A DNA stretch of 42,129 nucleotides from a virus: positions 1 through 42,129 of IMG/VR virus record IMGVR_UViG_3300024520_000166. One strand, written 5' to 3'. Positions 23,824-33,369 of the stretch are shown in pieces; positions within the stretch are counted from its first letter, which is position 1, and every line of letters begins with the position of its first letter. A model generated the notes under the pieces. It ran no database searches. It was not told the origin of the DNA and saw only the letters and a list, made by a program, of their open reading frames with translations. The position numbers and the translations under genes were made by a program.

Positions 23824-24321
23824 CTAGAAGGGAATTTCTGAATCGGCGAGCGGTGGGGGGCCGAAGTCGAAACCACCCCCCGACCCCTTCGACTCGCGTT
23901 GCTGCTGCTCTCGATTCGACGCCCCGCGCTGCTGTGCCGACGTATGGTCACTTCGGTCACCCTGCGTCGCCCACTCAGACCCCTGCGAGCTCTTGCGGTC
24001 GGCGAGAAACTCGACGGTGCGAGCGTTGATCTGCGTGCTCTCACGCTTGCTCCCGTCTTTCGCTTCCCACTGCCGGGTCTCAAGCCTGCCTTCGATGTAG
24101 ACCGATCGGCCCTTCGAAAGATGCTCCCCGCAGATCTCGCCGAGCCGGCCCCATGCTACGATCCGGTGCCACTCGGTCTTTTCTTTCCGGTCGTCACCCT
24201 TGCCGAAGCGCTCAGATGTCGCGATCGAGAAGTTGCAATAGGCCGTCCCGCCTGCCGTGTGCCCGACCTCGGGATCTCGCCCTAAGTTGCCGATCAGTAT
24301 CACTTTGTTAACGCTAGCCAT
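23824..24321 (-). CDS. ssb: Single-stranded DNA-binding protein
   Basis: The protein has 165 aa. The OB-fold is clear: VNKVILIGNLGRDPEVGHTA, YCNFSIATSERF, EWHRIVAWGRLGEICGEHLS and KGRSVYIEGRLETRQWEAKD. A disordered Gln/Ser/Gly linker leads to the tip DSEIPF, the usual acidic docking tail for partner enzymes. It would coat single strands during replication and RecT recombination. It overlaps the resolvase gene by 22 bases. Confidence 0.95.
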   Translation of the reverse strand: MASVNKVILIGNLGRDPEVGHTAGGTAYCNFSIATSERFGKGDDRKEKTEWHRIVAWGRLGEICGEHLSKGRSVYIEGRLETRQWEAKDGSKRESTQINARTVEFLADRKSSQGSEWATQGDRSDHTSAQQRGASNREQQQRESKGSGGGFDFGPPPLADSEIPF

Positions 24322-24683: not shown

Positions 24684-25603
24684 ACCGACCCCCGCTGCTC
24701 GATTATCTCTCGAATCACCCACCCGATCACCTCTGCGCACTGCGGCACGACAGCATTGCCGAGCGCCCTTAGTCGAGCCACCCTCTGGGGAACCCCATCA
24801 TCCACCCCACAAACCGGGGGTTGAGTCGGCCCTTCAGACCAAGCTCGGCAGGAATCGACGACGAGCGCCCGTGTTCTGCTGGGCTGCCGTTGTCCTTCCA
24901 CGACCGAGCCGCCGGAGTCGGTAGCATCGCCGTCGCCAGGGCTGCTAGACGTCGGTTCGCTGGCCATTTCATCGAATCTGGGCTGAGATGGTTTGCGGTC
25001 TCGGTCGGAGTTGGCAGAAGCCCCTGTGCTGCCATCGTCCACAGACTCGGCTTGCCCTTCGTCGCGTATTCCCCCCGCCCGTCTCCGGGGTTGCCGTTGT
25101 TGCTGCTCCCGTACGATGTCGCCGACGGCGTAGGCAACAACGAAAATCCGCTCTCTTCGGTGCGGTGCGCCGACATCAGCCGCCGACAACGGGATCGGAA
25201 GGACTGCATAACCTCGCCGGCCCAGGTCAGCACATATCGTGTCGACCCATCGCTGCGCACCGCTGGCCACATTTTCAACGACAACCCACGTTGGCCTGAG
25301 CTCACCGACGATCCGGGCAAACTCAAACCAGAGACCCGAGCGCTCGCCACCAAGTCCCGCGCCTTTTCCTGCGCTCGAGACGTCCTGGCACGGGTAGCCC
25401 CCGCAAATGAGGTCGGGGGAAACAAGGTTAGCTGCTCCGACTTCTCTGACATCTTCGAACCTCTCAGCGTCGGGCCAGTGCTTGGCCAGCACCGCCCGAC
25501 AGAATTCGCTCTGCTCTACCTGCCATATTGTTTCGCCGAGCCCCGCCCATTCGAGCCCGAGCTCGAGCCCGCCGATCCCCGAAAACAGCGATCCGATCTT
25601 CAC
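24680..25603 (-). CDS. C5-cytosine DNA methyltransferase
   Basis: The protein has 307 aa from GTG 25603, GTGA-coupled to the loader gene; a GTG at 25615 would add four residues. The motifs run in order: I FSGIGG (7-12), IV GGYPCQD with catalytic Cys72, VI VENV (109-112), VIII RERIF (150-154), then X LGNAVVP (281-287). Residues ~165-265, where the target domain lies, are low in complexity and rich in Ser, Asp, Gln and Arg. That stretch overlaps another patterned frame (24769-25452). Confidence 0.9.
   Translation of the reverse strand: MKIGSLFSGIGGLELGLEWAGLGETIWQVEQSEFCRAVLAKHWPDAERFEDVREVGAANLVSPDLICGGYPCQDVSSAGKGAGLGGERSGLWFEFARIVGELRPTWVVVENVASGAQRWVDTICADLGRRGYAVLPIPLSAADVGAPHRRERIFVVAYAVGDIVREQQQRQPRRRAGGIRDEGQAESVDDGSTGASANSDRDRKPSQPRFDEMASEPTSSSPGDGDATDSGGSVVEGQRQPSRTRALVVDSCRAWSEGPTQPPVCGVDDGVPQRVARLRALGNAVVPQCAEVIGWVIREIIEQRGSV
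24769..25452 (-). CDS. Overprinted ORF inside the C5 methyltransferase gene
   Basis: This is a 227 aa frame, +1 to the methyltransferase and lying wholly inside it. Its sequence matches a protein pattern I know from other phages: FAGATRARTSRAQEKA, repeated LLPTP and MLPTPAARSWKDNG segments, and the ending LNPRFVGWMMGFPRGWLD. It could be a true second product. It could also be a frame shadow that keeps its shape because the methyltransferase motifs are conserved (for example GGYPCQD and the motif X region). I see no clear ribosome site for it. Confidence 0.35.
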   Translation of the reverse strand: MSEKSEQLTLFPPTSFAGATRARTSRAQEKARDLVASARVSGLSLPGSSVSSGQRGLSLKMWPAVRSDGSTRYVLTWAGEVMQSFRSRCRRLMSAHRTEESGFSLLPTPSATSYGSSNNGNPGDGRGEYATKGKPSLWTMAAQGLLPTPTETANHLSPDSMKWPANRRLAALATAMLPTPAARSWKDNGSPAEHGRSSSIPAELGLKGRLNPRFVGWMMGFPRGWLD

Positions 25604-26586
25604 GACTGCACCCACCGACCGATCCGCCGGTCGATCGCTGCACCGTACCGCGACCTAAACCGCTCTCGGTCGAGCTCTGTTGTCATGATTGTCGTCAGCT
25701 TCTCACCGTGTGCCCGCACATCGATCAGCCGGGCAAACTCCGACGCGAACCTCGACCCTTCCCCGCTGTTTTCCTTGTCGATGTCGTCGATCACGAGCAC
25801 CCGCACCCGCAGCAGAAAAGCCCGATAGCTGTCCCCGTCAGCTTCCCACCACCGACGACCCGCGAGGTCGACAGCGTGTGCGAAGTGCGCCGAGAAGGGT
25901 CGCTGCTGCGACGCTGCGAAAAAGGCTTCGGCGATGACACGAGACACCGCACCGACGGTCTTGCCCGAGCCGGTCGAGCCCGACAGCACGAGCACCCCTT
26001 CGGCTTCGGCAGACGCCCGGACAGCCCAGTGCCCGCCCTGGTACGTCGGTCCCTGTATCACCGCGATATGGCCCGAGAGCACGCCGGCCCGCTTCGCATA
26101 GTCGAGCAAATCGAGCGCGCTGGTGTTCGGTGGCGTCTCACACTTCGCAGCGAATACCGGATCAGCCTGGATCTTTCTCTCCCACATCTCCCGCAGCCCG
26201 ACGACGAGCTCGACGTATTTGCTGCCCCGCTTGCCCTCGACGCTCTGCCAAAACCGCCGCGTCTCCTGCTCTTTCTCTGCCTTCGTCCACCCGACATGAT
26301 AGCGCGGTGCTGGTATCCGCCGGTCCCCCGGCATGAAGGTCAGCGACAGCCCGCAGAGCTCGTCGCGCTCTTCGGTGTCGATCACCCGGTATTTGTGGGG
26401 CTCTCTGCCGGTGGTGACATGCTTACCGGCAGCGTTCTTCTGCCACACCGGATCACCGTTCGGCCGAAACAGCTTGCGACGCCTCACCACCGGTGCAGCG
26501 CAGATCCAGATCCCGACATCGTCGAGCGGTGCGAGTTGTGGCCCGTGGTCGGGGCAAATAAGTCGGTGCTGCTCTTGTGCGCTCAC
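25600..26586 (-). CDS. DnaC-like helicase loader ATPase
   Basis: The protein has 328 aa from GTG 26586, with AAAGGAG ten bases upstream. A TTG start at 26616 is less likely. Walker A is GSTGSGKT at residues 203-210 and Walker B VLVIDDID at 263-270, followed by a sensor stretch TTIMTTELDRERFRSRYG. The end DRRIGRWV is usual for DnaC/IstB loaders. The N-terminus has a possible metal site (CPDHG and WICAAP). It lies behind the initiator gene, as lambda P behind O. Confidence 0.8.
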   Translation of the reverse strand: MSAQEQHRLICPDHGPQLAPLDDVGIWICAAPVVRRRKLFRPNGDPVWQKNAAGKHVTTGREPHKYRVIDTEERDELCGLSLTFMPGDRRIPAPRYHVGWTKAEKEQETRRFWQSVEGKRGSKYVELVVGLREMWERKIQADPVFAAKCETPPNTSALDLLDYAKRAGVLSGHIAVIQGPTYQGGHWAVRASAEAEGVLVLSGSTGSGKTVGAVSRVIAEAFFAASQQRPFSAHFAHAVDLAGRRWWEADGDSYRAFLLRVRVLVIDDIDKENSGEGSRFASEFARLIDVRAHGEKLTTIMTTELDRERFRSRYGAAIDRRIGRWVQS

Positions 26587-26632
26587 AGTCCCTGTGCTCC
26601 TTTTCCCGGGCTTCAAATTCCCCGGGGTCCAC

Positions 26633-27703
26633 TTACCCTTCGGTGCCCGAGATCGTGCTGTCCTCGGGCTGCTGCGCCTTCTCGCGTGCCTTTATCTCTT
26701 CCAGCTTCTTGTAATACTCGAATCCGCCACCGATACCAACAAGCTCCGGGTGCTCCGGCGTGCCGCTCGCCTTGAACGGTTCCGCCGGTGCGACCTTGCG
26801 CCGCGACCCCTTGCCCCCTGCCTTTACGCTCTGAGCTGCCTTTCGCCTGAGCCCATGTAGCACCGTGATCGCGTAGCTGACGGCTGAGCCGGTGGCGTCT
26901 CGCTTCGTGATGTCGATCGCACGCTCGACGATGTCGCCGTCGAAGCAATGGGGCTCGGCGAAGGCGAAGCCCTTGGCGAGCTTCCGCTGCTGCGACGGTG
27001 CGAGCATGACGCACCACCCGAGCGAAGCGAAGACCGCGAGCAGCCGATTCTCGCCGTAGAGCCCGTCGGGGTCGATCGTGCCCTTGCGGTCGTCAACGGT
27101 GACCGTCTGCCATTCTGGCCCGACACCCGCTGTAGGTGTTTGTTCTACCTCTACCTCTACCTCTACCTCTACCTCTACCTTAGACGCGTACACATCTGTT
27201 ACAGGCGTTACAGGTGTAACAGGTGTAACGGTTACAGGCATGTTACTGTAACGCTCGCTAACGTCTTGTTTTTTCTTGGCTCTTGACTTGGCCACCCGTC
27301 GCCGCGTGTCCTCTCTCGCCTTGATTGCTTTGCCCGCGTGGTTACTCCACGTCTTGAACTTCAGGTAGCCGTTGCACTCGACGAGCCACCCGACCGTTAC
27401 CATCGCCGTTACAAAGAGCCCCGGATCACCCTTCCAGCCGGCCACGTCTGCCATCATCTGAGCGGGCATTCCGGTCAGCTTTCCGTCGGGCCGGTGGATA
27501 CCAGCCCAGAAGATCAGATCGAGCACGTAGTGATGTGCGCGTTGCCCGTACACATCGAGCGCTATCGCGAGATCTGTCGACTTGCGCGATTCTGCGATCC
27601 TCGGATCTATCGGCATGAAGTTAAGGGGGGCTTCTGTTGACACGTCAGCGCCTTTGCGGCTAGTGTCGGAGCCGCTATTGATGGTGACTGGAATCCCCGT
27701 CAT
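26633..27703 (-). CDS. Replication initiator (O/DnaD-like)
   Basis: The protein has 356 aa from ATG 27703 with GGTGA upstream; the longer frame to 27838 would overlap the zinc-protein gene. The N-terminal domain (~residues 30-130) resembles phage replication winged helices: RAHHYVLDLIFWAGIHRPDG, QMMADVAGWKGDPGLFV and VGWLVECNGYLKFKTWSNHA. A low-complexity linker at ~150-187 (PVT and VE repeats) carries the repeat cluster described separately. The C-terminal part is a helical partner-binding domain (GDIVERAIDITKRDATGSAV). Its neighbour is the loader. Confidence 0.75.
   Translation of the reverse strand: MTGIPVTINSGSDTSRKGADVSTEAPLNFMPIDPRIAESRKSTDLAIALDVYGQRAHHYVLDLIFWAGIHRPDGKLTGMPAQMMADVAGWKGDPGLFVTAMVTVGWLVECNGYLKFKTWSNHAGKAIKAREDTRRRVAKSRAKKKQDVSERYSNMPVTVTPVTPVTPVTDVYASKVEVEVEVEVEVEQTPTAGVGPEWQTVTVDDRKGTIDPDGLYGENRLLAVFASLGWCVMLAPSQQRKLAKGFAFAEPHCFDGDIVERAIDITKRDATGSAVSYAITVLHGLRRKAAQSVKAGGKGSRRKVAPAEPFKASGTPEHPELVGIGGGFEYYKKLEEIKAREKAQQPEDSTISGTEG
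27145..27180. repeat. Six tandem CTACCT units
   Basis: Six perfect 6-base units lie at 27145-27180. They give a pyrimidine-rich plus strand and a purine-rich minus strand, and encode alternating Val-Glu in the initiator linker. The strand asymmetry is like that beside the lambda origin. It abuts the GTTAC repeats, 17 bases away. Confidence 0.85.
27197..27252. repeat. GTTAC/GTAAC cluster, candidate replication origin
   Basis: Seven copies of GTTAC or its complement GTAAC lie within 56 bases, at 27198, 27207, 27216, 27225, 27231, 27242 and 27248. The first four are nine bases apart, one per Pro-Val-Thr triplet. GTTAC-T-GTAAC at 27242-27252 is an exact palindrome. The placement in the linker of the initiator gene matches the lambdoid plan, where the origin lies within O. 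That it is the origin is an inference. Confidence 0.6.
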
Positions 27704-27726
27704 AGCATCACCGCAACGCGCACTGC

Positions 27727-27750
27727 AAGGGGGGCTTTCGAGCCCCCTTT
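27727..27750 (+). terminator. Hairpin with TTCG loop between two replication genes
   Basis: AAGGGGGGCT-TTCG-AGCCCCCTTT forms a ten-pair stem with one G-T pair. On the plus strand it carries a TTCG tetraloop and is followed by GTTGGTT, so it resembles a terminator for transcripts running rightward. On the minus strand it lies between the zinc-protein stop and the initiator start and could form in the operon mRNA. The direction of use is not settled. Confidence 0.5.
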
Positions 27751-27765
27751 GTTGGTTCTGGATCT

Positions 27766-27993
27766 TCATGTCCCGGGAAAGCGCGTGCAATCTTTCCTGC
27801 ACCCGCTGCACCTCAGAATCCACATAGGATCGTACCATGTTGGCATCGGCTCACCCTCAAGTGACCATGTATGCCTAAGCCGCTTCCGGCACTTGAAACA
27901 CCACCGGGTCGGGCGGTCGTCGGGGTCGGTCCGGAAAACCTGCCAGTGCCGGGGCTTGTTGATGTGAACGGTTACGATGTCGTCACCGCTCAC
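27766..27993 (-). CDS. Small zinc-binding protein
   Basis: The protein has 75 aa from GTG 27993, overlapping the previous gene by 11 bases. It has RWCFKCRKRLRH and, 30 residues on, LRCSGCRKDCTRF: two CxxC pairs that make a zinc ribbon. It is rich in Trp, Arg and Pro. It sits directly before the initiator gene and may help replication or bind DNA. I do not recognise a specific family. Confidence 0.7.
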   Translation of the reverse strand: MSGDDIVTVHINKPRHWQVFRTDPDDRPTRWCFKCRKRLRHTWSLEGEPMPTWYDPMWILRCSGCRKDCTRFPGT

Positions 27994-28447
27994 CCGTCAC
28001 CGCCCGGAGCATCTTTCCCTGTGAGCCGTAGACATTGGCGAAGCCTGCCCGGTCGAGATCGCTGCGGTCGCTCGGCAGATCTTCGGCCTTCATCTGCTCG
28101 AAGTCCGCGCGATTCTCTGCCATGATCTGGCGTTTCCTCGCGAGTGCCGGAGCCCCGAGCATCGCGTCGCGCTCGAACGGTAGGCACGTATCGCAGACGA
28201 GATGACCGGCCCCGCTGATAGCGAAGCCCCCACACCCCCACGAACCATAATCGCAGCGAGAGCACGATCGGAAGACGAACGCCCCGAGCACCGTCGAGAG
28301 CCGATAGATCTGCTGCTCGTTCGGCTCAAAGTGCCGGTATATCTCCCTGATCTCTTTCTTCGTCAGATCCGCCGCTTCGGCGAGCCCCTGCGTCGAGAAT
28401 CCTGCCGCGTCTGCTCGGTCGCGCAGCGCGTATCGAAAGTCACTCAT
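27983..28447 (-). CDS. HTH protein with zinc ribbon
   Basis: The protein has 154 aa from ATG 28447, with GGGGGGAGG just upstream. The N-terminal ~60 residues look like a helix-turn-helix (FSTQGLAEAADLTKKEIREI). A cysteine pair region follows (CSRCDYGSWGC and CDTCLPFERDAM), then a charged helical end. The combination of HTH and zinc ribbon suits a transcriptional regulator. It lies behind a methyltransferase gene in the leftward early operon. Confidence 0.65.
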   Translation of the reverse strand: MSDFRYALRDRADAAGFSTQGLAEAADLTKKEIREIYRHFEPNEQQIYRLSTVLGAFVFRSCSRCDYGSWGCGGFAISGAGHLVCDTCLPFERDAMLGAPALARKRQIMAENRADFEQMKAEDLPSDRSDLDRAGFANVYGSQGKMLRAVTGER

Positions 28448-30561: not shown

Positions 30562-30708
30562 ACGGTGACCATATGCGGGAAAGTGCATCGCGTGCAAGGT
30601 TTTTCTTGCACTGCGTGCACGGTCGTGAGACAAGACGACTGCGCCCCTGCACCGGAGTCGGAGTGCAGAGGCGCGTCGTCGAACCAACTTCTTAGGAGAT
30701 GCCGCCCC
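30562..30708. promoter_or_regulatory. Divergent early control region with operator palindromes
   Basis: These 147 bases lie between the Cro-like gene and the recombination operon. Two copies of the palindrome are present: TGCAT-CGC-GTGCA (30584-30596, one mismatch) and TGCAC-TGC-GTGCA (30607-30619, exact), with centres 23 bases apart. They match sites in the 16.5 kb control region. CTGCAC and GTGCAG at 30647-30652 and 30663-30668 make a further split inverted repeat. AGGAGA at 30694-30699 is the ribosome site for the plus-strand gene at 30709. Confidence 0.65.
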
Positions 30709-31023
30709 ATGACGAACGACAGAGCCACCGTACACCGCAGGAATCACCTACGCAACGTGATCGCGACGATGACGCGCCGCACCCCCGCCGACGTGCAGCG
30801 CCTTGCAGCGTGCCTCTCGAGCGCTGTCTCGGGCTTTCGTGCTGCTCGGCACATCGTCGAGATCGCCGGCCCCGTCGGCGAGCGGGTGATCATCGTCTAC
30901 GATCGGCAGGCTCGCACCGCGCGGGTCGCCGTCGACGGTCAGCAGCTCGGGCTCGTCGTTGCCCCGAACGTCACCGCAGCCGCTCGCAAAGTCTTCGCAG
31001 AGCTCGACGGGGGTGCCGCGTGA
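30709..31023 (+). CDS. First gene of the recombination operon, unknown function
   Basis: The protein has 104 aa from ATG 30709, with AGGAGA ten bases upstream. The N-terminal part is basic and helical (RNHLRNVIATMTRRTPADVQ); the second half is a small beta domain (ERVIIVYDRQARTARVAVDG) with a closing helix. It is coupled by GTGA to the RecT-like gene, so it may assist recombination. I do not recognise the family. Confidence 0.7.
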   Translation: MTNDRATVHRRNHLRNVIATMTRRTPADVQRLAACLSSAVSGFRAARHIVEIAGPVGERVIIVYDRQARTARVAVDGQQLGLVVAPNVTAAARKVFAELDGGAA

Positions 31024-31844
31024 ACGATCTCACCGTACGCACTGCACCGACGCTCGACCCCTACACGCCCCGCGACTTCGAGCAGACAATGAACCTCGCA
31101 CGTCTGATCGCCGAGACCCCGGAGATCTGCCCCGACAGCCTGCGCGGAAAGACCGGTGCCGTGTGGCTCGTGCTCGCAAAAGGCTCTGAGCTCGGGATCC
31201 CCGCTCTCGCTGCCCTACAGTCGATCTATGTGATGAAGGGTAAGCCGGTGGTCTCGGCGCACCTTGCCGCCGCGCTCGCGAAGAGCTCGCCGAGCTGCGT
31301 CTACTTCCGATGCACCGAGAGCACCGCCGAGCGCGTGACGTACGAGACACTCCGCAAGGGTAGCCCCGAGTCGGAGTCAGTGACGTGGACAATGGAGCGC
31401 GCCCGCGCTGCCGGTCTCGCCGGATCGCCGACGTGGAAGAAGCACAAAAATGAAATGTTAGGGGCACGCGCGAAAATGGAACTCGCCAGAATCAGCTATC
31501 CCGAGCGGGTGCTCGGGCTCTATCTCCCCGACGAAGTCGCACACTTCGACGCCGCCCCCGGTCCGCAGACGCTCGAGAGCCCCGCCACCGTGCCCGCCAT
31601 GGCGCCGCCACCGGCGCCCGAGCCCGAAGCCCCTGCCCCGGTCGTTGAAGCTGAATACAGCGACGACACCGCGCCGAACGAGTTCGAGCGGATCAAGATC
31701 GATCTGAAAGACTGCGCCGACCTCGCGGCATGGGCTGACCTGGCTGCCGAAGTAGCGACGCACTCAGAGGCGGAGCTATCAGGAGACGAGCGGATCAAGC
31801 TGCGCGGGCTCTTTTCCGCGCGCCGAGCAGAGTTGCGATCATGA
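31020..31844 (+). CDS. recT: RecT-like single-strand annealing protein
   Basis: The protein has 274 aa from GTG 31020. The core is RecT-like: MNLARLIAETPEICPDSLRG, AVWLVLAKGSELGIPALAAL, then KGKPVVSAHLAAALAKSSPS and a conserved aromatic YFRCTEST. The stretch SPTWKKHKNEMLGARAKMEL is also family-like. The tail from ~190 is Pro/Ala/Glu-rich and ends in a helical domain. It would pair strands resected by the exonuclease encoded at 32200, helped by Ssb. Confidence 0.8.
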   Translation: MNDLTVRTAPTLDPYTPRDFEQTMNLARLIAETPEICPDSLRGKTGAVWLVLAKGSELGIPALAALQSIYVMKGKPVVSAHLAAALAKSSPSCVYFRCTESTAERVTYETLRKGSPESESVTWTMERARAAGLAGSPTWKKHKNEMLGARAKMELARISYPERVLGLYLPDEVAHFDAAPGPQTLESPATVPAMAPPPAPEPEAPAPVVEAEYSDDTAPNEFERIKIDLKDCADLAAWADLAAEVATHSEAELSGDERIKLRGLFSARRAELRS

Positions 31845-32203
31845 TCGGAGCGTGTGCCGTCTGCGGTGTCAGCGTCCACTCGGTGCGGATCGGGGGCGAA
31901 TTCGCGATCCTTGCGTACTGGCCCGACGATCGAGGCGACATCTATCACGATCTGCACAACGACGATCGCACCCGGCAGCTCTCGGTGGCCGAAGCGATAA
32001 GCTATGCCGGACCGCTGTACCGTCTGCACGAGTGCGGCAGCGGTCGCCGGCTCATCAAAACCTCGGTGAGCATCGAATACAGGCAGGATGTCGAGCTGCG
32101 CGAGCTGCACCGACGAACACGGATCCCGATGGCTGAGTTTATCCGGCAGGGGATCGACCTCGCACTCGAGACCCACAAAGACAAAGGAGACGAAAACCCA
32201 TGA
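31841..32203 (+). CDS. Ribbon-helix-helix protein with N-terminal cysteine pair
   Basis: The protein has 120 aa with ATGA overlaps at both ends. The N-terminus has CAVCGVSVHSV and a later HECGSGRR, which could bind zinc. The C-terminus (KTSVSIEYRQDVELRELHRR, then TRIPMAEFIRQGIDLALE) fits a CopG/Arc ribbon-helix-helix: beta strand, helix, turn, helix. It sits between the two recombination genes and may regulate the operon or guide recombination. Confidence 0.7.
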   Translation: MIGACAVCGVSVHSVRIGGEFAILAYWPDDRGDIYHDLHNDDRTRQLSVAEAISYAGPLYRLHECGSGRRLIKTSVSIEYRQDVELRELHRRTRIPMAEFIRQGIDLALETHKDKGDENP

Positions 32204-33369
32204 GAATCACCGCAAGCAAACTCGACCGGATCGCCCGCTGCCCCGCGTCTGCCGCCCTACCGCAGAGCCCCGACACCGGCGGTGTGTGGGCTACCCGGGG
32301 CACCGCGCTGCACACCTTTTGCGAGCGAGCCGGCGAAGTCGGCCGCGAGACAGCGCTCGAAGAGACGCCCGACGAGCACCGCGCCGCGGCTGCTGCACTT
32401 TCAGAACACAGCTACTCGGGCGATGGCGTCTTCGAGATCGCCTTCGCTTATGACCCGGTCGCCGACACCGCGCGCGAGCTCGGCAGGGGGAAGGGCCGAC
32501 ACTATGGCGACGCCGTCGATGGCGAGATCTGCGGTGCTGCCGACTTCGTCGCTCTGACGCCCGACGGTGGCGTATACGTGCGCGACCTGAAGACCGGCAG
32601 GGGATGGCAGCCCCCGCTTGCTGAGCATTGGCAGCTTCGAATGTACGGGCTCGCAGCGGCACGCGCCTTCGACCGGCAGAGCGTCACAATCGAGCTGTGC
32701 CGCGACCTCGGCGACGGTGGTCTCTCGGTCGGCCGGCTCGAGCTCGACCTTTTCGATCTCGCTGCCTTCGCCGCTGAAGTGCGTGAGCTCACCGAGCGGA
32801 TCCCGCACCAGCACGCAGAGCTCGACCCCGTCGAGGGTGAATGGTGTAAATACTGCCCCGCCTTCGAAGCGTGCCCGAGAAAGCTACAGCTCGCGAAGGC
32901 ACTCGCAGCCCCCGAGCAGCCGCCGCTCTCGGTGGTCATCGACGAGCACAGCTTCGCCGACGTGTGGCGCAAGGTGAAGACCGCGCGCGATGTGCTCTCA
33001 CGCATCGAAAGGGGGCTCGACGCATACGTCGAGATGTGCGGGTCGGTGTCGCTCGGTGACGGGGTGAGCGTCACCAGCGTCGAAAAAAGTCGCGAGTCGG
33101 TGATCGCTCCAGTCGTCGCCAGCCTGCTTGAGACTATGTGGGACCACGAGACCGCCGAGAGTGCCGTTGACACGGTGCAGAAAGCGTCTAAAGCATCGAT
33201 CAAGCGCGCGCTGCGTGGATTGAAAGAAAGCGGAAAGCTGACATGCTCGCTCGCCGCTGCTGAGCGGGAGATCTTCGCCGAGCTTCGCAGTATGGGGGGG
33301 GTGAAAACGTCGACCTTTCGCAAGATCGAAGAGGTATTAGACCCGAAACCAGAGGAGATTGACCCATGA
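32200..33369 (+). CDS. PD-(D/E)XK exonuclease, Cas4/AddB-like (DUF2800)
   Basis: The protein has 389 aa. A nuclease core is visible: TRGTALHTFCER, Asp115 in GAADFVAL, Asp129-Leu-Lys131 in VRDLKTG, and EHWQLRMYGLAAARAF (Gln145). A Fe-S cluster site as in Cas4/AddB is suggested by Cys14 with Cys216, Cys219 and Cys225 (CKYCPAFEACP). Residues ~250-389 form a further helical domain. Paired with the RecT-like gene it makes a RecE/RecT-like module. Confidence 0.85.
   Translation: MRITASKLDRIARCPASAALPQSPDTGGVWATRGTALHTFCERAGEVGRETALEETPDEHRAAAAALSEHSYSGDGVFEIAFAYDPVADTARELGRGKGRHYGDAVDGEICGAADFVALTPDGGVYVRDLKTGRGWQPPLAEHWQLRMYGLAAARAFDRQSVTIELCRDLGDGGLSVGRLELDLFDLAAFAAEVRELTERIPHQHAELDPVEGEWCKYCPAFEACPRKLQLAKALAAPEQPPLSVVIDEHSFADVWRKVKTARDVLSRIERGLDAYVEMCGSVSLGDGVSVTSVEKSRESVIAPVVASLLETMWDHETAESAVDTVQKASKASIKRALRGLKESGKLTCSLAAAEREIFAELRSMGGVKTSTFRKIEEVLDPKPEEIDP

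Follow-up and report, generated by a model that had tools for sequence, protein, structure and literature searches.

Genes of the replication module

The window analysed here is an entire viral contig of 42,129 bp that carries myophage genes for the sheath, baseplate, portal and terminase. Its replication module includes the following genes and gene parts.

23824-24321, minus strand: gene for a single-strand DNA-binding protein (SSB) in the same replication module (Pfam SSB, E=3.9e-35)
25600-26616, minus strand: DnaC-like helicase loader gene (phrog_50, E=9e-9; phrog_3277, E=4e-7)
26633-27703, minus strand: initiator gene of the replisome-organiser type (phrog_9474 match, AlphaFold2 model, alignment with the related locus L411/L421)
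27344-27604, minus strand: part of the initiator gene coding for the winged-helix DNA-binding domain (AlphaFold2 model, wHTH matches in the PDB)

The loader gene is the next gene downstream of the initiator gene, and its family matches bear out the earlier note, in which a loader had been read there from the sequence. Three DNA methyltransferase genes are present in this 42-kb phage (20043-20870, 24680-25615 and 28460-29155), two of which lie near replication genes. Genes for a RecT-like annealing protein and a PD-(D/E)XK exonuclease are located on the plus strand at 30699-33369, the initiator and loader being encoded on the other strand.

The open reading frame of the initiator opens at 27838 (minus strand, 26633-27838). 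The true start is probably the ATG at 27703, since the homologue in L411/L421 aligns from that methionine. A GC-rich inverted repeat, CAAGGGGGGCT...AGCCCCCTTTG, at 27726-27751 lies within the longer reading frame immediately upstream of the probable start, which also favours a start downstream of 27838.

The initiator protein matched phrog_9474, 'replication initiation protein', over residues 78-192 in the wHTH region (E=1.8e-21), and also phrog_2509 (E=8.9e-11). No Pfam family was found at E <= 1, including Phage_rep_org_N, to which a homologue (L209) showed a weak match under the cut-off (E=0.028). Named phages gave matches of about 27-31% over a third of the protein, and neither the window protein nor the loader alone retrieved close relatives among viral contigs or genomes. 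The protein is built of an N-terminal winged helix, a linker predicted to be disordered and a helical C-terminal part. AlphaFold2 modelled the winged helix confidently (residues 34-120 counted from the methionine at 27703, pLDDT mostly 75-97), followed by a long helix, a low-confidence linker that carries the end of the box array described below and the VE repeat, and a poorly resolved helical part. Fold comparison to the PDB returned wHTH proteins, among them the plasmid Rep initiators 4pt7 and 5kbj with a Z of about 6, a score that other wHTH proteins share. Foldseek against the PDB gave no match at E <= 0.001, and the fold comparison describes a generic winged helix.

Short boxes within the initiator gene

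GTTAC and GTAAC were counted together as GTWAC, because they are one box read from two strands. The DNA elements within the initiator gene are listed below; none is assigned to a strand.

27130-27432: segment with the lowest duplex stability in the 42-kb genome (windows of 50, 75, 100, 150, 200 and 300 bp)
27145-27180: (CTACCT)6, on the coding strand (GTAGAG)n, encoding (VE)n; proposed duplex-unwinding element, within the least stable 50 bp
27197-27252: core box array, seven GTWAC at 27198, 27207, 27216, 27225, 27231, 27242 and 27248
27225-27235: inverted box pair GTAACGGTTAC (coding strand GTAACCGTTAC), GTWAC-N-GTWAC
27242-27252: second inverted box pair GTTACTGTAAC, GTWAC-N-GTWAC, in RY/SN codons and thus in the other reading frame
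27341-27412: outlying boxes in the winged-helix coding part, GTWAC at 27341, 27396 and 27408

The seven boxes at 27198-27252, with the first four spaced by 9 bp, and the six CTACCT units in the linker part of the gene had been described in the earlier note and were found again in the sequence. The intervals of the core array are 9, 9, 9, 6, 11 and 6 bp, the three exact nines falling among the first four boxes, and the core boxes and CTACCT units are encoded in codons for RYSNMPVTVTPVTPVTPVT and (VE)6. In total, the gene carries ten boxes, seven of them in the linker that follows the winged helix. Read from the sequence, the base after a GTTAC-oriented box is usually A, and no 5-mer is more enriched in the gene than TTACA/TGTAA. 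Longer matches within the array consist only of the 9-bp PVT period and the box pairs.

GTWAC occurs 33 times in the genome, and ten of these occurrences fall within 27198-27412; dinucleotide shuffles (n=100) gave at most three in any 220-bp window. No second GTWAC cluster was found anywhere in the genome. Because the boxes sit in a gene, a control that keeps the protein was applied. With the protein and the genome codon usage fixed, 2.4 boxes are expected in the initiator gene compared to ten observed, and at least ten were reached in 2 of 20,000 synonymous randomisations drawn with genome codon usage. Permuting the gene's own synonymous codons gave a mean of 4.8 boxes (P = 0.0006).

A protein-level explanation has to be weighed against these counts, namely that a PVT/VE linker repeat grew by slippage and that the boxes and the low stability are its side effects. 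The exact 9-bp spacing is what PVT, a repeat of three codons, would produce, the CTACCT units are read as (VE)n, and the linker is predicted to be disordered, low-complexity linkers being common in such proteins, so that slippage could account for part of the repeat. It does not explain the reading frames, however. VT codons hold seven of the ten boxes; the other three, against 0.49 expected (P = 0.007), are in RY/SN codons of another frame, where rare codons are used. Moreover, the valine codons of the array are all GTA or GTT, which make up 21% of the valine codons of the genome.

Duplex stability and the CTACCT tract

Duplex stability was computed as the mean nearest-neighbour energy per window. 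The minimum of the whole genome starts at 27130-27139 at all six window sizes of 50 to 300 bp, while 30-bp windows place it elsewhere. At 50 bp the minimum (27133-27182) corresponds to the CTACCT tract, a hexamer tract with a GC content of 50%. The stretch with the outlying boxes (27341-27412) is not destabilised.

Compared to synonymous versions of itself, the linker segment is less stable by a z of 7-7.8, the most extreme value among 1,018 coding segments, whereas in any other gene z reached at most 4.2. The boxes alone gave 5.2 and the tract alone 4.4. After in silico deletion of five of the six CTACCT units the region was still the least stable of the genome at 100 bp and remained in the top 0.14% at 50, 75 and 150 bp, which also speaks against low stability as a by-product of a slipped repeat.

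Cumulative GC skew, proposed in the earlier note as a test for the replication start, falls through nearly the whole window with no turning point at 27 kb, and the best change point of the strand-corrected third-position skew lies near 35 kb. Because of the near-continuous fall, cumulative skew is uninformative here and was set aside as an origin test.

Retention in a divergent relative

A pattern search of viral contigs with (GTAGAG)4 yielded 25 stretches, among them L411, whose extension L421 is the IMG/VR contig IMGVR_UViG_3300024518_003127. The tract in L421 is no independent evidence, since it was the search key; nothing in the search required boxes, an inverted pair, a loader or a stability minimum. 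The L421 initiator is 43% identical to that of the window over 303 residues and matches phrog_9474 (E=8.7e-21), and a loader homologue with 30% identity follows it.

The linker of the L421 initiator reads DAGGNGNVTVTPPNHVRSCNATK-VEVEVEVE and has no PVT repeat. Four GTWAC boxes lie within 50 bp in frames 1, 0, 0 and 1, half of the eight present in the 8.9-kb locus, while shuffles (n=300) gave at most two in 60 bp. Their spacings are 11, 6 and 28 bp, so that the exact 9-bp spacing is not kept. The (GTAGAG) tract has four units and matches the tract of the window exactly, and an inverted box pair, GTAACTGTTAC, is of the same kind as the pair at 27225-27235. In the DNA alignment of both loci the blocks TGTAAC-N-GTTACACC and CTAAGGTAGAGGTAGAGGTAGAGGTAGAGG are kept amid diverged sequence. 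The least stable 100 bp of L421 start at the first box, and its boxes exceed the synonymous expectation to a modest degree (linker, P = 0.006; whole gene, P = 0.03).

The earlier note had raised the case of related phages that keep the protein repeat and not the DNA boxes. The opposite was observed in L421, where boxes and tract persist and the PVT repeat is absent, and this counts further against slippage as their source. We therefore regard slippage as an unlikely explanation of the locus as a whole. Taken together, the synonymous box excess, the excess instability and the retention in L421 without the PVT repeat indicate that the DNA itself has been selected.

Other initiators and wider relatives

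The initiator of L418 belongs to another family (replisome organiser phrog_4880, E=3e-41; also O-like phrog_345), and its gene carries GTAACGTTAC twice, followed by a (GTAGAG) tract as in the window. In L416 (phrog_2447), GTCAC boxes precede a (GTAGAG) tract. L134, with matches to DnaD-like and replisome-organiser families, shows six GTWAC followed by an AG-rich tract, and the least stable 100 bp of its 14.9 kb fall in the initiator-like gene. It is possible, and we put it forward tentatively, that unrelated phage initiators share a distinct origin design, in which short inverted GTAAC-N0-1-GTTAC half-site pairs are followed directly by a tandem, purine-rich (GTAGAG)n unwinding tract in the sequence coding for a disordered linker, box and tract being held at the DNA level while the protein linker drifts.

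Distant wHTH relatives have neither GTWAC arrays nor the PVT repeat and carry other repeats at the same linker, such as AGTAGACCAG in Faecalibacterium phage FP_Lagaffe, a distant wHTH relative. The GTWAC box is thus lineage-specific, as most relatives of the wHTH family do not have it. Relatives matching phrog_9474 in alphaproteobacterial genomes likewise showed other linker repeats and no GTWAC array, and the A4 profile matched in none of 385 genomes. A literature search for GTTAC together with phage, repeats and replication returned only an unrelated inverted repeat.

Further linker repeats were observed in initiator or initiator-like genes of L205 (931-1875), L206 (1453-2352), L404 (13721-14437), L409 (1744-2430) and L416 (3-740); they comprise (CCCTCT)n coding for (PS)n, a TTGAA/TTCAA cluster, GGAGTCC, AAGCAAAACG and the GTCAC boxes. 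In L404, L409 and L416 a (GTAGAG)n tract comes after the linker repeats.

Among 21 loci of wider relatives, several of which are near-duplicates, the 100-bp stability minimum of the locus fell within the initiator gene in 11, and the initiator gene was within the top 3.1% for instability in 18. In the synonymous-stability test the initiator ranked first in 8 of 19 loci, a rough ranking because the opposite-strand frame was scored for a few of them.

GTWAC arrays outside initiator genes

A scan of viral sequences for four GTWAC at 9-bp spacing gave more than 120 matches, mostly in tail-fibre-like VTP/VTG repeats, with others at VapE helicases and at AAA_25 and DUF927 primases. We rejected the view that phage origins in general use GTWAC boxes spaced by 9 bp, as VapE relatives swap the core and the search was biased towards GTWAC. 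When VapE loci were picked without regard to boxes, GTWAC arrays were present in 2 of 43. The sequence shared with some VapE origins may be a case of convergence, because the 9-bp spacing occurs there with many cores.

The VapE-helicase phages themselves show non-coding origins of constant layout, with opposed arrays of 9-bp-spaced boxes around TATATATA. They were seen in the IMG/VR contigs L315-L394, about 10-260 bp past the VapE gene, and in L310 (2388-2564), L200 (1183-1430), L155 (1735-1999) and L067 (1503-1688). At least five GTWAC were counted in about 15 of 72 distinct regions downstream of VapE. The box core varies between relatives (GTTAC, GTACC, GCAAC, GGAAC, GTCCC), and these swaps form a natural series for the study of initiator-box specificity.

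Thirteen GTWAC lie in non-coding DNA of L142 (6159-6345), between a DUF927/Toprim primase gene, which they directly follow, and an ogr/Delta-like gene. The element is integrative, located beside tRNA-Arg, and is carried by 449 of 5426 E. coli genomes, one copy lying at 1510653-1511253 of NZ_AP018784.2; its thirteen-box array is likely an origin. GTWAC arrays were also noted inside or just after AAA_25 primase-helicase genes in L257 (913-1072), L116 (4173-4404) and L192 (835-866).

Comparison with known origins

In the Stx phages and lambda the origin is situated inside gene O and is followed by P (PMC7466680). The locus described here resembles it in that repeats lie midway along the initiator gene, next to a stretch computed to melt easily, and the loader gene comes after. 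The term 'lambda-like' used in the earlier note is therefore suitable for the layout. It does not extend to homology, as the initiator gave no lambda O match in Pfam at E <= 1, and the loader is DnaC/AAA-like by family match, in contrast to lambda P. The earlier note was also right that the boxes differ from those of lambda and are far shorter: the lambda iterons are 19-bp imperfect inverted repeats, while the boxes here measure 5-6 bp and are partly arranged in inverted pairs.

In phage SPP1, gp38 binds the oriL repeats inside gene 38, beside an AT-rich unwinding element, and gp39 is the loader (PMC6316719). Here, too, a gene for a replisome-organiser-type initiator carries repeats, for which binding is predicted, together with an easily opened element, and the loader comes next in the pathway. 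The repeat sequences are different, and the opening element of SPP1 is AT-rich whereas the hexamer tract here is half GC. SPP1 also has a second origin, oriR, while the window has no second GTWAC cluster.

The origins of the PICI/VapE type (PMC6092414; L310, L200, L155, L067) share short boxes and the 9-bp spacing, with GTTAC in some of them. In these origins an AT-rich core is flanked by a pair of opposed arrays; they lie in non-coding DNA 3' of a primase-helicase gene and serve another type of initiator. The window has a single array inside a gene, with no AT-rich core between the boxes.

Origin model and alternatives

The boxes, the stability minimum, the adjoining loader gene and the retention in L421 support the origin that had been proposed within the initiator gene, and we put the probability that this phage replicates from an origin inside its own initiator gene at about 0.86. 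As part of this reading it is well supported that the boxes are putative initiator sites and the CTACCT tract a putative unwinding element.

By analogy with SPP1 and lambdoid origins, a sequence of binding, tract opening and helicase delivery is proposed. The winged-helix domain of the initiator would bind the GTTAC(A) boxes. At the inverted pairs GTAAC-N-GTTAC it would probably do so as a dimer, as suggested by the retention of such pairs in L421 and by similar ones in L418. The initiator-box complex would then strain and open the adjoining low-stability DNA, chiefly (CTACCT)6. The DnaC-like loader would put the host helicase on the opened strand, and replication would start in this region.

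Initiators often repress their own genes, and clusters of boxes near a gene can act as operators. The array could accordingly be a set of operator sites through which the initiator operon is autoregulated, with the initiator or a repressor as the binding protein and the origin elsewhere. The array occupies a mid-gene position, however, promoter-like sites were not found in 26500-28200, the array coincides with the stability minimum of the genome, and the genome offers no other GTWAC cluster as the origin array. Such a regulatory role in place of an origin is thus very improbable. A parS-like partition site or a methylation-linked array, for which the three methyltransferase genes could be cited, is hardly credible, since no ParA/ParB-type gene was present among the proteins scanned (part of the ORFs), nothing ties a methyltransferase to GTWAC, and the array lies inside the initiator gene next to an extremely unstable tract.

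The probable origin inside the initiator gene is concrete enough to be tested, in a myophage lineage that has no close named relatives. It also suggests how origins can be sought from sequence, by looking for initiator-linker DNA that is less stable and richer in repeats than the protein demands. The pair formed by the window and L421 can be used to ask how binding sites and the protein encoded in the same bases evolve together.
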